Origin: Hymenobacter taeanensis
Lineage (GTDB): Bacteria; Bacteroidota; Bacteroidia; Cytophagales; Hymenobacteraceae
Assembly (NCBI RefSeq): GCF_013137895.1
Contig: NZ_CP053538.1
Coordinates: 3,751,001-3,815,000, forward strand
Length of the DNA: 64,000 nucleotides
Reading direction: 5' to 3'
Shown here: positions 5,229 through 64,000 of the stretch, piece after piece
Numbering within the stretch: position 1 is the stretch's first letter
Layout: the number at the start of each line of letters is the position of its first letter
Translations under genes and position numbers: made by a program
Notes under the pieces: model-generated
What the model was told of the DNA's origin: nothing
What the model saw: only the letters and a program-made list of their open reading frames with translations
Databases searched by the model: none

Positions 5229-5797
5229 CAATTACCATCACGTAACAAGGAAACGTAGGACGTTATAAAAGACTTAATCCGGGGGTAAAGCTTCTTGCAG
5301 TATGCAAGCGTTTCTCGCTTTTTGTACGGTTGTGAACTGTAATCTGTAGTAATATTCTGTATGCTTAGCCCTTCTTTCTGTCGGTTGAATACTCAAACCC
5401 CAGTTAGTGGGTTTGATGTGTAGCAGCTAACCGCTTCCGTTGGCTAGCGCAGTATACATACTACGGCATGCCAGCTTGCAATATGATTACCGGCACTTTA
5501 TACTTATTTATTGATACTAGTGACTCAGCTATCAACATTGGCTACACAGTTGAAACTACTACTTCAGCGTAGTTCAGCACAGTGGCCTAGTAATATGCAA
5601 TTAACGTAGTCTCACACCTAGGTCAAATAGGCGGTAGAAACCTTATAGGTGAACTTATACTACCTAACATTTCGGGCACTTTGTGGGCTTGGCCTTTGTT
5701 GAAACAAGAATGCCCGAAACCGGGCAAACGGTGGCAAAAACCGGATATTTCCGGTATATTTGCCTACTTAGACTGTCAGCGCTGAACCTCCCGAAAT
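5229..5797. other. Upstream region of gyrB with an inverted repeat
   Basis: About 570 AT-rich bases have no supported gene. Near the end, TTTCGGGCA (5670-5678) and TGCCCGAAA (5711-5719) form a 9-base inverted repeat with a 32-base spacer, just upstream of the gyrB -7 box. A regulatory role for it is a guess. One copy of the octamer GTGGCCTA lies at 5582-5589. Confidence 0.45.
5755..5762 (+). promoter_or_regulatory. Probable -7 box of the gyrB promoter
   Basis: TATATTTG matches TAnnTTTG and lies 35 bases before the gyrB start codon. No clear TTTG is present at the expected -33 distance. Confidence 0.5.
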
Positions 5798-7786
5798 ATG
5801 AGCGAAACGAAAGAGAAAAAAGCCCCCGCCGAGTATTCCGCGAATAGCATTCAAGTACTCGAAGGGCTTGAAGCCGTGCGCAAGCGTCCATCCATGTACA
5901 TTGGGGACACCGGCATCAAGGGCCTGCACCACCTAGTGTGGGAGGTAGTTGATAATTCCATCGACGAAGCCCTCGCCGGCCACTGCGACACGATTCACGT
6001 TACCATCAACGAGAATAACTCTATTACTGTCCGGGATAACGGCCGCGGTATTCCCGTTGATTTCCACCAGAAAGAAGGCCGCTCGGCCCTGGAAGTGGTA
6101 ATGACGGTGCTGCACGCCGGTGGCAAGTTCGATAAGGACAGCTACAAAGTATCTGGTGGCCTACACGGTGTGGGCGTGAGCTGCGTTAACGCACTCAGCC
6201 AGGACCTGAAAGTAACAGTGCGCCGCAACGGCAAAGTATACCAGCAGGAGTACAAAATTGGTGCTCCACAATACCCTGTAAAGGAAATTGGCGAAACGGA
6301 AGAGCACGGTACCCAGGTAGAGTTTCTGCCTGATGATACCATCTTCTCAGAGTCGGTTTACAAATACGCTACCATCGCTTCGCGTTTGCGCGAACTGTCC
6401 TACCTGAACAAAGGCATTCGCATTACCCTCACCGACCGTCGGGAGAAGGGCGAGAACGGCGCTGAGTTCCTGGGCGAAGAGTTTTTCTCCGAGGGTGGCC
6501 TAGCCGAGTTTGTGCAGTACCTCGATGGCTCAGAGCGCCATGCGCTTATGCCTACGCCCATCCACGTGGTGAGCGAGAAAGGCAACACCCCGGTAGAGGT
6601 AGCTCTGCAGTACAACGATTCGTACCAGGAGAATATCTTCAGTTACGTTAATAACATCAACACCCACGAAGGTGGCACGCACGTGGCGGGCTTCCGCTCG
6701 GCGCTTACCCGTACCCTGAAGGCCTACGCCGACAAGTCAGGCAAGCTGGAGAAGGCCAAGGTGGAAATTTCGGGTGAAGACTTCCGCGAGGGGCTTACGG
6801 CCGTTATTTCGGTGAAAGTAGCCGAGCCTCAGTTTGAAGGTCAGACTAAAACCAAGCTGGGCAACAACGAGGTAAGCGGCGCCGTGAATACGGCTGTAGG
6901 TGAAATTTTGGCGCAGTACCTGGAGGAAAACCCCAAGGAGGCTGGTATCATCGTGGAGAAAGTAATTCTGGCTGCCAAAGCCCGGATTGCCGCTCGCAAA
7001 GCCCGCGAAATGGTGCAGCGCAAAACGGTGCTGGGCTCAACCTCGCTGCCGGGTAAGCTAGCCGACTGCTCTGAGTCAGACCCTGAAATCTGCGAGCTGT
7101 ACCTGGTCGAAGGTGACTCGGCCGGCGGTACTGCTAAGCAGGGCCGGAACCGGGCGTTTCAGGCAATTCTGCCGCTCCGCGGTAAGATCCTGAACGTGGA
7201 GAAAGCTCAGGAGCACCGTATCCTGGAGAACGAAGAAATTCGGAACATGATTACGGCGTTGGGCGTGACCTTCGGCGTGAATGCTGATCCGGAGAAAGGG
7301 ATCGAAGCCGACGCAAAAGCCCTGAACACGGCTAAGCTGCGCTACCACAAGATCATCATCATGACCGACGCCGACATCGACGGCTCGCACATCCGGACCT
7401 TGATCCTGACCTTCTTCTTCCGCTACATGCGGGAGCTGGTTGACAACGGCTATATCTACATTGCCCTGCCGCCGCTCTACCTCGTGAAGCGTGGTAAAGA
7501 GGAGCGCTACTGCTGGACCGAAGCTGAGCGCCAGCAGGCGCAGGAAGATATGGGCCGCGGCAAGCCAGAGACGGTGAACGTGCAGCGCTACAAAGGGTTG
7601 GGCGAGATGAACGCTGAGCAGCTTTGGAGCACTACTATGCAGCCCGCTACTCGTTCTCTGAAGCAAGTAACGGTAGAGTCGGCAGCCGAAGCTGACCACC
7701 TGTTCTCCATGCTAATGGGCGATGAAGTTGCCCCCCGACGCGACTTCATCGAGAAAAACGCTAAATACGCGAAACTCGACGTGTAA
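5798..7786 (+). CDS. gyrB: DNA gyrase subunit B
   Basis: This 662-residue subunit is the ATPase and part of the cleavage core of DNA gyrase, which introduces negative supercoils together with GyrA. The GHKL ATPase is visible in [22 protein letters not shown] and [16 protein letters not shown]. The Toprim domain follows with [19 protein letters not shown] and the metal-binding DADIDGSHI. The C-terminal end has [10 protein letters not shown], the gyrase B signature. Length is normal for a Bacteroidota GyrB without the extra domain of enterobacteria. The start fits the family N-terminus. gyrA is not in this window. It stands alone between an AT-rich leader and a strong terminator. Confidence 0.98.
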
Positions 7787-7792
7787 GCACGA

Positions 7793-62630: not shown

Positions 62631-63052
62631 CGGAGTGTGGCGTCGTGGTTAAAGAGGAATTCACCTCGGCGTACTAGGCCGAATTAGCAAGATATTTCCC
62701 TCCACCAAGCGTCTATACCGCGCCAGGCCAGTTCTACGATTTCTAAGCTGCTATCTATTATTGATTTAAAAAGGTAATTCTTTGGATTTGACTGGTCTAG
62801 TGCGGTCGGGCTTGGGGCGGTTGATACAGTGTCAGAAGGAGCCAATAGCTGAGCAAACAGCTGAAATTAACTGCGTGACGGCTACCACATTTGTACGTCA
62901 TGCTGAGCGGAGTCGAAGCATCTCTATTGTTTCGTTGCAGAGGCCTAGGCCACTTGATTAGCCAGAGGTAGAGATGCTTCGACTGCGGCTGCGCCTCCGC
63001 TCAGCATGACGGGCTTGCTATAAAAGAATGGGCTGATTGTAAAGCAAGTGGC
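62631..63052. other. Intergenic region upstream of gltB
   Basis: About 420 bases between gltB and the DUF6986 gene, both on the minus strand. It contains palindromic repeat copy C and two octamers (62946-62953 and 63048-63055). No clear promoter of the Bacteroidota type was found for gltB. Confidence 0.5.
62896..63011. repeat. Intergenic palindromic repeat, copy C
   Basis: CGTCATGCTGAGCGGAG followed by TCGAAGCATCTCTA (62896-62926) pairs with the right arm ending 63011; the right arm carries about 12 extra bases (a GCGGCTGC-type insertion). The central spacer contains CTAGGCCACTTGATTAGCCAG, close to the spacers of copies A and B. Confidence 0.88.
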
Positions 63053-64000
63053 CTAGGCTTTCTGGGCGCGGCGGCCTTCCAGGATGCGGAAAAAGGAGCG
63101 AGTGTGAATTTCGGCGGTGGTGAGGCCGGTGGCTTTGATTTCCTCTTCCGTAATGGCGCCGCAGTTCAGGGCTTTCAGGAAGAAGTTGAGCAGGCCCTGA
63201 CCGGTGGCGGCATCGTCGAAAATGTCGCCGGTGAGGGTAGAGATGGCGGCGCGCTCCACGAAGGTTTTCAGGCGATGGACTGCGTCGTCGTAGCTGCTGA
63301 GGAAAAAGTTGTAGGTGGCCGCGTACCGCATGGGCAGTTGGGCAGGGTTCAGGTCCCAGCCCTGGTAGAGACCGTTGATGAGCGAGTGGGTGGTATGCTG
63401 GAAACCCTGCCGCCAGGCATTATGCACCGATTCGCGGTTCTCGCGGAGCTGCTCATACGAGAGGTTTTCGCCGCGGTGCGGGCCAATGGGCATCACGTTG
63501 GTGGCGCCGTCGGAGAGGAAGATGCCGGTGCCGCCCAGCGCTACTTTGGTCATGTGGTGGGCGAAGTCGCAGACGGGGTGAGCCATGGTCTGATACTTGG
63601 CCGTGATACCCGCCGAGGCGGTATAGTCGTAGGTGCCGAAGTGAGCCGCTACGCACCGGCCCTCGCTGGCCCTGATGATGCGCATGAGCGGGTTGCGGCC
63701 TTCCTCATCCATAATAATCTGGGTGGCCTCTACCATCGTTTCCATTTTCAGGGTGCCGGGCTCCAGGCCATTAGCCTTCTCCAGCAGCTCAAAAAAGCGC
63801 ACCATGGTAGTCATCTGCTCCGGGATGGTCACTTTGGGCAGCATCACCACGAAATTGTCGGGCAGTTTGCCGCCGGTTTTCTCCAGAAGCGTCGTCAGGA
63901 ATATGTCCAGTGTGCGGATGCCGCGGGCCTTCATGTCCTCCGTGAATGGCTTGATGCGGATGCCAATAAACGGCGACACGGTGCCTTTTTGCATGCCCAG
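63053..64000 (-). CDS. DUF6986 aldolase/citrate-lyase-like protein (cut by window edge)
   Basis: The visible 313 or more residues are the C-terminal part; the N-terminus lies beyond base 64000, so the Met codon at 63992-63994 is probably internal. Family marks are LPDNFVVMLPKVTIPEQ, GRCVAAHFGTYDYTASAGI, GTGIFLSDGATNVMPIG, VHNAWRQGF and YQGWDLNPAQLPMRYAATYN. These match DUF6986, a branch of the HpcH/HpaI aldolase and citrate lyase beta superfamily often annotated as phosphoenolpyruvate kinase or aldolase. Such genes often accompany purine/allantoin catabolism genes, which cannot be checked here. Its stop begins a TAGGCCAC copy. Confidence 0.8.
   Translation of the reverse strand: MGMQKGTVSPFIGIRIKPFTEDMKARGIRTLDIFLTTLLEKTGGKLPDNFVVMLPKVTIPEQMTTMVRFFELLEKANGLEPGTLKMETMVEATQIIMDEEGRNPLMRIIRASEGRCVAAHFGTYDYTASAGITAKYQTMAHPVCDFAHHMTKVALGGTGIFLSDGATNVMPIGPHRGENLSYEQLRENRESVHNAWRQGFQHTTHSLINGLYQGWDLNPAQLPMRYAATYNFFLSSYDDAVHRLKTFVERAAISTLTGDIFDDAATGQGLLNFFLKALNCGAITEEEIKATGLTTAEIHTRSFFRILEGRRAQKA

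Follow-up and report, generated by a model that had tools for sequence, protein, structure and literature searches.

A lineage-specific DNA word in Hymenobacter taeanensis and its counterparts in other Hymenobacter lineages

In this work we have investigated an octamer, TAGGCCAC, in a 64-kb stretch of the Hymenobacter taeanensis genome (hereafter the window; contig NZ_CP053538.1, positions 3,751,001 to 3,815,000), which a first-pass annotation had found over-represented and had compared to a DNA-uptake sequence. The octamer belongs to a genome-wide, lineage-specific DNA word, and at least three other words fill other Hymenobacter lineages; the dialect pattern itself is near certain. As to its cause, we favour the explanation that the word is a label of self DNA read during pilus-free uptake, both the uptake and the reader being hypothetical, and we give this a probability of roughly 0.4. 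It ranks ahead of a process inside the cell like that of the HIP words of cyanobacteria, and ahead of an intracellular binding protein.

Abundance and extent of the word

The window contains 31 copies of TAGGCCAC, against a mean of 2.34 and a maximum of 6 in 100 shuffles, and the genome from which it comes (G000; 4,879,662 bases) contains 2,306, against 100 for the reversed word. The over-representation is thus confirmed as a real observation in both, the genome-wide count being far above shuffles and control, and the word is equally frequent on the two strands (1,126 forward, 1,180 reverse). All 29 positions listed in the first-pass annotation carry the octamer, and two further copies, at 15538 and 35001, had been overlooked. 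At low counts, TAGGCCAC also exceeds its reversed control in other families of the order (114 versus 9 in G037, 78 versus 2 in G044 and 37 versus 0 in G055).

The octamer is enriched, but it is not the true unit. In 864 kb of G000 (40 stretches and the window), the sample used for the word statistics of this genome, TAGGCCAG and TAGGCCAC are about equally common, with 382 and 373 copies, and longer forms recur: CTAGGCCACT 128 times, CTAGGCCAGT 124 times and CTAGGCCTGT 52 times. Copies aligned on TAGGCC carry clear information only at a preceding C, at TAGGCC itself and at the following A or T, C or G, and T. The octamer is a slice of this wider degenerate motif, CTAGGCC[A/T][C/G]T, which we call dialect A. 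An extended form had been reported for most intergenic copies, and AGTGGCCTA indeed reads in 12 of the 16 intergenic or gene-end copies listed. We expressed enrichment as the number of copies divided by the average over 40 shuffled versions of the consensus. Between the genes of G000 the perfect motif (120 copies) stands at 192-fold, falling to 6.2-fold with one mismatch and 1.5-fold with two, and inside genes the corresponding values are 26, 3.1 and 1.2; in G075, another genome of dialect A, they are 298, 11.9 and 1.4 between genes and 34, 4.3 and 1.1 inside them. The pooled genomes G085, G078 and G137 hold no perfect copy and reach 0.87-fold at one mismatch.

Two observations concern longer words in the same 864 kb. 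Several 12-mers, such as AAGCATCTCTAC and GCTCAGCATGAC, occur 15–19 times each and perhaps represent a REP-like repeat family. The word AGTGGCCTAGGC occurs 29 times and, together with the head-to-head overlap AGTGGCCTAGGCCAGT at window positions 38634-38647, hints at a full dyad site.

Dialects across Hymenobacter

We counted words in 120 Hymenobacter genomes, the other words having been found from 80 kb of G108 and a survey of 40 genomes at 20 kb each. Dialect A is high in four of them (G000 2,306, G018 3,414, G075 3,787 and G141 3,372 copies of TAGGCCAC), and the other 116 hold 112–372, so that these are not enriched to this degree. Dialect B, with the word CTACCCCC, CTACCCC(C), is high in 15 genomes: G034 (5,005), G115 (4,727), G014 (4,668), G099 (4,351) and G028 (3,754) lead, followed by G117 (2,622), G108 (2,603), G081 (2,466), G121 (1,624) and G026 (1,213), and then by G070 (1,152), G097 (1,106), G078 (1,068), G137 (982) and the borderline G088 (531); the remaining 105 hold 69–378. 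Dialect C, CCTAGGGC or CCTAGGG(C), is high in G096 (4,619), G033 (2,963) and G021 (2,950), the next genome having 623, and dialect D, GGCTAGCC, in G118 (3,011), G133 (2,170) and G076 (2,079), the next having 322. A candidate fifth word, E, ACCTAGGT, comes from 20 kb of G134. Related genomes thus differ in dialect, in the manner of Neisseriaceae, which supports the uptake comparison: 25 genomes are high for exactly one of the four words and none for two. The other 95 are high for none, and by wordless we mean lacking these four, the wider survey having covered the 40 genomes named above. In 20–22 kb of G114, G065 and H. caeli, GGGGCCCC reaches about 3–5 times expectation; it may be another word, one that lacks TA, or may simply reflect GC richness.

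All of the words combine CTA with a GC-rich block, are centred on TA and are more or less dyad-symmetric, the partial dyads being GSSC.TA.GGCCWST for A, GCCC.TA.GGGC for C and CGGC.TA.GCCG for D. Could such words arise inside the cell? In a HIP-like process, DNA modification or mismatch repair at the word would both create and protect it, and the enzyme of the lineage would set the word. The words are sporadic and mutually exclusive, their density is about 430–930 per Mb in well-sampled strong genomes, and C and D are palindrome-like, all of which would suit such a process; A and B, however, are not palindromes. Alternatively, the TA-centred and partly dyadic form might mark the sites of an intracellular binding protein, a chromosome organiser or nucleoid protein sitting as a dimer on the dyad, with the sites kept by selection.

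History of the words

The species history was followed on a gyrB tree, for which 62 of 66 candidate sequences gave gyrB (60 from Hymenobacter and two outgroups; G068, G020, G083 and G087 were lost). The tree includes all four A genomes, 10 of the 15 B, two of the three C and one of the three D; a GyrB search of contigs gave five Hymenobacter loci among the 80 matches listed. Dialect A forms two separate pairs, G000 with G075 and G018 with G141, each with 100% bootstrap. Dialect B is spread over several branches, and one clade mixes genomes of C, D and B with a wordless one. Parsimony requires 11 word changes on 60 tips, compared with a mean of 17.2 and a minimum of 13 in 1,000 label shuffles, where G088 was entered as wordless, G072 as E from its raised CCTAGGGC count and not from its ACCTAGGT count, and H. 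armeniacus and H. negativus as wordless, judged from 22 kb each. This points to inheritance, yet with fast turnover, and on this tree the words appear to have been gained or swapped repeatedly. The GyrB of G085 is 97% identical to that of G000, yet G085 has only 201 copies of TAGGCCAC. So rapid an exchange is hard to imagine for thousands of needed binding sites, and 95 of the 120 genomes manage without any of the four words; turnover at this speed favours a drive-like process rather than sites that are essential for binding. The strong conservation within a dialect (below) would agree with a binding protein, whereas the lack of orientation along the GC skew (below) would not, and on balance we consider this explanation improbable.

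Placement of the copies

Gene positions come from a dicodon caller of our own making, which gave a coding fraction of 0.77, and the 8% of the sample that it left open was set aside. The 373 octamers fall into called genes (210), intergenic DNA (104), positions across a stop codon (33) and uncalled stretches (26). The intergenic bias noted at first therefore holds, with a 2.6-fold enrichment of the octamer in G000 and a full motif that is 4.0–6.5 times denser between genes than inside them in the four dialect-A genomes. This excess is seen in dialect A only: the ratio of intergenic to coding density is 0.8–1.2 for B and D and 1.0–1.8 for C. The strength of the excess in A also speaks against a HIP-like process. 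Among the gaps of G000, the density of motif A is highest in convergent ones (27 copies in 16.4 kb) and lowest in divergent ones (13 in 18.8 kb), with 66 copies in 61.6 kb of co-directional gaps; 14 of the 120 intergenic copies lacked a called gene on one side.

Wherever the motif spans the edge of a gene in G000, that edge is a stop (36 of 36). The six TAG stop codons said to open a copy do match the ends of open reading frames (ORFs), at 17669, 32042, 32113, 38639, 45227 and 63053, but this overlap follows from the TAG within the word and lends no support to an uptake-type role. Similarly, the two inverted pairs described as terminators both fold as hairpins, but they are two cases and not a rule: 143 neighbouring TAGGCC[AT][CG] pairs lie 8–120 bp apart, 84 of them inverted (46 convergent, 38 divergent) and 59 direct, where equality is expected. 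With so weak an excess, hairpins would be a minor use, and a terminator element was rejected as the explanation of the word.

Chi and KOPS are oriented along replichores, and Chi is, like the word described here, an over-represented short word. In G000, no replichore bias was found when the replichore was approximated, roughly, by the sign of the local GC skew (418 versus 406 copies; p = 0.70), and a replichore-oriented signal was rejected. The spacing of the copies is slightly clustered (coefficient of variation 1.12 versus 0.99 for random placement in G000), in contrast to the even spacing expected from a repair-density model, and this is a further point against a HIP-like process.

Might no special process be needed, the word being a product of word bias, codon bias or a dispersed mobile element? 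Coding copies are found in either orientation and use all five frames free of an in-frame stop, chiefly three of them. This preference means that protein constraint shapes their placement, and it counts in favour of such an origin. Codon or word bias was nevertheless rejected, as the strongest enrichment lies between genes. A dispersed mobile repeat was also rejected, since there is almost no information outside the ten bases and aligned sites show substitutions in place. With the 116 genomes of the genus that are not enriched in this way, we find an ordinary origin hardly credible.

Origin and upkeep of coding copies

The orthologue tests of coding copies cover the window. At the site at 53578, G000 has CAGTAGGCCACCC where the aligned orthologues of G085 and G078 have CAGCAAACCGCCC, and alignments of this kind show that the alignable coding copies arose by substitution in place. 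Nine changes into coding words that are shared could be polarised: six are C-to-T at the first base, two are G-to-A at the last and one is T-to-G.

Coding TAGGCCA is intact in G075 at 22 of 28 sites; of 3,790 words with the same base composition, 1,215 are intact there (p = 6e-7). Four relatives that lack the dialect retain only 2–4 of 20–23, and words of equal composition survive in them in 22–25%. Codons that differ from G075 make up 22% under the word and 46% in its flanks, while for the four other relatives the figures are 55–60% and 52–54%. The differing codons under the word are 76–82% synonymous, like those of the flanks. Judged by these alignments, conservation of the alignable coding copies exceeds background only between genomes that share the dialect.

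We also compared the frequency of one-base neighbours of the word in dialect-A genomes with that in relatives, the reference set including dialect-B genomes. TAGGACA is the most depleted (0.21, 0.26 and 0.34). Mild depletion is seen for the transition neighbours CTGGGCC (0.64–0.77) and TGGGCCA (0.69–0.84), and among others TAGTCCA stands at 0.5–0.8 and CTCGGCC, CTTGGCC and CTGGGCC at 0.6–0.8. This leaves room for a repair ratchet from some neighbours, and eight of the nine polarised changes, being C-to-T or G-to-A, are in the direction that a HIP-like process could produce. Against such a process, the C-to-T neighbours are not depleted (CTAGGTC 3.3–3.8, TAGGTCA 0.9–1.4, TAGGCTA 0.65–1.0).

Candidate machinery

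ComEC, the channel of the inner membrane whose presence had been proposed as a check, is found in 119 of the 120 genomes, G000 among them, with or without a word, the sole miss being G028, a genome that is 82% complete. Being nearly universal, it does not track the words. The ATPase of type IV pili and type II secretion (PF00437) exceeded the cut-off in three of the 120 genomes, none of which is among the 25 that bear words, with 14 of the 25–44 first-look candidates per genome scored; fragments below the cut-off were seen in G026 and G133. The uptake machine of Neisseria and Pasteurellaceae, to which the octamer had been likened, thus finds no counterpart by this measure. DUF5689, which we take to be a DNA-binding surface protein of Riemerella, was rejected as a receptor: it is present in 16 of 30 chosen genomes with no link to dialect, and was not found in G000, G075 or G141.

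The enzymes that a HIP-like process would call for gave no better match. C5 methyltransferases (PF00145) occur in 10 of 25 word-bearing and 35 of 95 other genomes, and N6/N4 methyltransferases (PF01555) in 13 of 25 and 59 of 95, so that neither is linked to the words. Both families are missing in at least one genome of every dialect, namely G000 (A), G070 and G137 (B), G021 (C) and G118 and G076 (D), in a search that left aside type I, type IIG and Dam-type enzymes. Neither a Neisseria-type machine nor these two families therefore explain the words.

Words in foreign DNA

The word-poorest of 41 stretches in G000 (L033, G000:C1:3050001-3070000; GC 60.6%) has 4 TAGGCCA compared with a mean of 19.2 per 20 kb, and is a defence island with homologues of SspB, SspC and SspD (phosphorothioation) and of IetA. 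A plasmid of the dialect-B genome G115 carries 26 CTACCCCC in 100 kb, whereas 60 kb of the chromosome hold 56 (p = 3e-8), that is 0.26 per kb against 0.93 on the sampled chromosome, or 3.6-fold fewer; over 12 kb it is identical to CP014769.1 of H. psoromatis PAMC 26554. Nine other Hymenobacter plasmids, taken irrespective of host dialect, have 0–3 CTACCCCC in 50 kb each, below the plasmid of G115. In cyanobacteria, scarcity of HIP1 marks foreign genes (PMC3025956), and the plasmid comparison fits uptake and HIP-like models alike without separating them. Within the window, the DNA that aligns to no relative is not poor in words, with 9 TAGGCC[AT] in 7.8 kb, next to 56 in 44.3 kb of the window core and 26 in 11.9 kb common to G075 only; scarcity in foreign DNA thus rests on one island and one plasmid.

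Copies within the window

The TAGGCCAC copies in intergenic DNA lie at 5582..5589 (minus strand, in the CTAGGCCACT form), 35485..35492 (plus), 35632..35639 (minus), 40986..40993 (minus), 50034..50041 (minus) and 62946..62953 (plus), and at 52721..52728 (minus) and 52748..52755 (plus), which are the arms of one hairpin. The arms of the other also supply stop codons: 32040..32047 (plus) ends the ORF 31707-32042 (plus) and 32108..32115 (minus) ends the ORF 32113-33111 (minus). This hairpin, at 32036..32119, has 37 pairs, a 4-base loop and the two inverted TAGGCCAC at its ends (-68.9 kcal/mol, z -17.26); it spans the gap between convergent genes and by its looks is unusually long for a terminator. 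TAG is likewise the stop codon at 17664..17671 (ORF 17669-18556), 38634..38641 (ORF 38639-39664; an opposite-strand TAGGCCAG overlaps at 38640), 45222..45229 (ORF 45227-46573) and 63048..63055 (ORF 63053-63994), with copy and ORF on the minus strand in each case. At 55220..55227 (minus), at the 3' end of the gene 54401-55228, the last two bases of the copy and the next base form the TAG stop, and 58100..58107 (plus) lies at the end of the ORF 58107-62630 (minus).

Coding copies on the minus strand are at 6156..6163 and 6495..6502, both in gyrB, at 12676..12683, which is absent in G075, and at 15538..15545, one of the two overlooked earlier. Those on the plus strand are at 13648..13655, 14851..14858 (G078 and G108 differ at four bases of the word), 17489..17496, 35001..35008 (the other overlooked copy), 36741..36748 (in a UvrD-like helicase; shared with G078, G137 and G108, not with G085), 49556..49563, 53578..53585 (G085 and G078 differ at four bases), 57351..57358, 60312..60319 and 60729..60736. 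The copy at 41557..41564 (minus), given as coding in the first-pass annotation, is in a stretch that the gene caller left open.

Two other features of the window may be mentioned. At 22105-24179, a 276-bp unit is repeated 7.5 times within a 1,465-aa ORF (21466-25863), upstream of a CheA-like gene. At 12454-16179 (minus) a 1,241-aa protein is encoded which has no Pfam match and, when searched against phages, gave no match; relatives about 70% identical in DNA are found on two Hymenobacter plasmids.

A label for self DNA?

How might a genome acquire such a word and then exchange it for another? We suppose that a lineage-specific and sequence-specific reader rewards DNA bearing its word. The reader would most likely act during the uptake of free DNA, where word-bearing segments would be taken up and recombined more often, and the word would pile up where it does little harm: between genes, at gene ends and in tolerant codons. 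After a swap or loss of the reader the old word would no longer be maintained. Since the search for a type IV pilus ATPase gave no hit above the cut-off in word-bearing genomes, such uptake could only be pilus-free, and it may use a Bacteroidota route like that of Riemerella, which takes up DNA without pili by means of eight essential genes, four of which have no known counterpart in transformation (PMC8459023).

Several features agree with published uptake sequences. The DNA uptake sequence (DUS) dialects of Neisseriaceae share a fixed CTG core and number 943 to 5,918 copies per genome (Frye 2013, PMC3630211); in Hymenobacter the words likewise number in the thousands (531 to 5,005) and the dialects of related lineages have a fixed three-base core, here CTA. 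The uptake sequences considered by Bakkali 2007 (PMC1939737) are non-palindromic, with about 10% inverted repeats, a non-coding excess, no orientation bias and a graded mismatch load. Dialect A resembles those of Pasteurellaceae and Neisseriaceae in its non-coding excess, its lack of orientation bias, an enrichment graded by mismatches and an origin by point mutation. The steep preference for the perfect word, the non-coding excess of A, the absence of orientation, the origin in place and the fixed-core dialects thus fit, by analogy, uptake sequences as published. The original uptake comparison is supported by the over-representation, the intergenic excess, the equal strands and the dialects; terminator pairs, stop overlap and the pilus machine lend it no support.

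There is also a good deal that weighs against an uptake label. The palindrome-like form of words C and D sets them apart from known uptake sequences, and B and D lack an intergenic excess. The words are scattered over the tree, whereas the dialects of Neisseriaceae, a family of a different phylum, follow phylogeny (PMC3630211). Uptake preference has been measured in Pasteurellaceae and Neisseriaceae (PMC1939737), while the Hymenobacter words are known from sequence; among the papers listed, none reports competence in Hymenobacter. Nor does any paper among those listed, which included no preprints, link the genus to an uptake sequence or to a word in excess, a weak negative. The machinery differs as well: PF00437 stayed below its cut-off in word-bearing genomes, DUF5689 is unrelated to dialect, and ComEC does not track the words, 95 of the 120 genomes carrying it with none of the four. 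A mutational process would give the same eight of nine polarised changes, and the unaligned DNA of the window is not word-poor. Lastly, HIP1 and the alternate HIPs are sporadic, mutually exclusive and GC-rich, occur at about 500–2,500 per Mb and are tied to cognate methyltransferases (Elhai 2015, PMC4390886). The Hymenobacter words share the GC richness, a similar density and the replacement in single lineages by other words, and in this scattered turnover, with words that are GC-rich and in part palindromic, they match the alternate HIPs. HIPs are palindromes, whereas A and B are not, and PF00145 and PF01555 are both missing in G000. Weighing these points, we regard a HIP-like process as rather unlikely, and continue to prefer a self-DNA label.

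To our knowledge, genome-wide self words with dialects are known only from two pilus-bearing families of proteobacteria and, as HIPs, from cyanobacteria. We tentatively suggest, with somewhat less assurance than for the label itself, that self DNA is recognised in these Bacteroidota without type IV pili, by dialects that can be swapped: each reader would drive its TA-centred word through the genome of its lineage, and an exchange of the same few readers between Hymenobacter lineages would give identical words in separate branches. Four mutually exclusive words in one genus, together with close wordless relatives, amount to a natural experiment on the origin, spread and replacement of such words. 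The distribution of the dialects also gives a genetic handle on the reader, by asking which gene tracks the dialect. If uptake is indeed the cause, this would be, as far as we know, the first uptake-sequence system in the Bacteroidota, and it would lead towards the receptor that binds DNA in transformation without pili.

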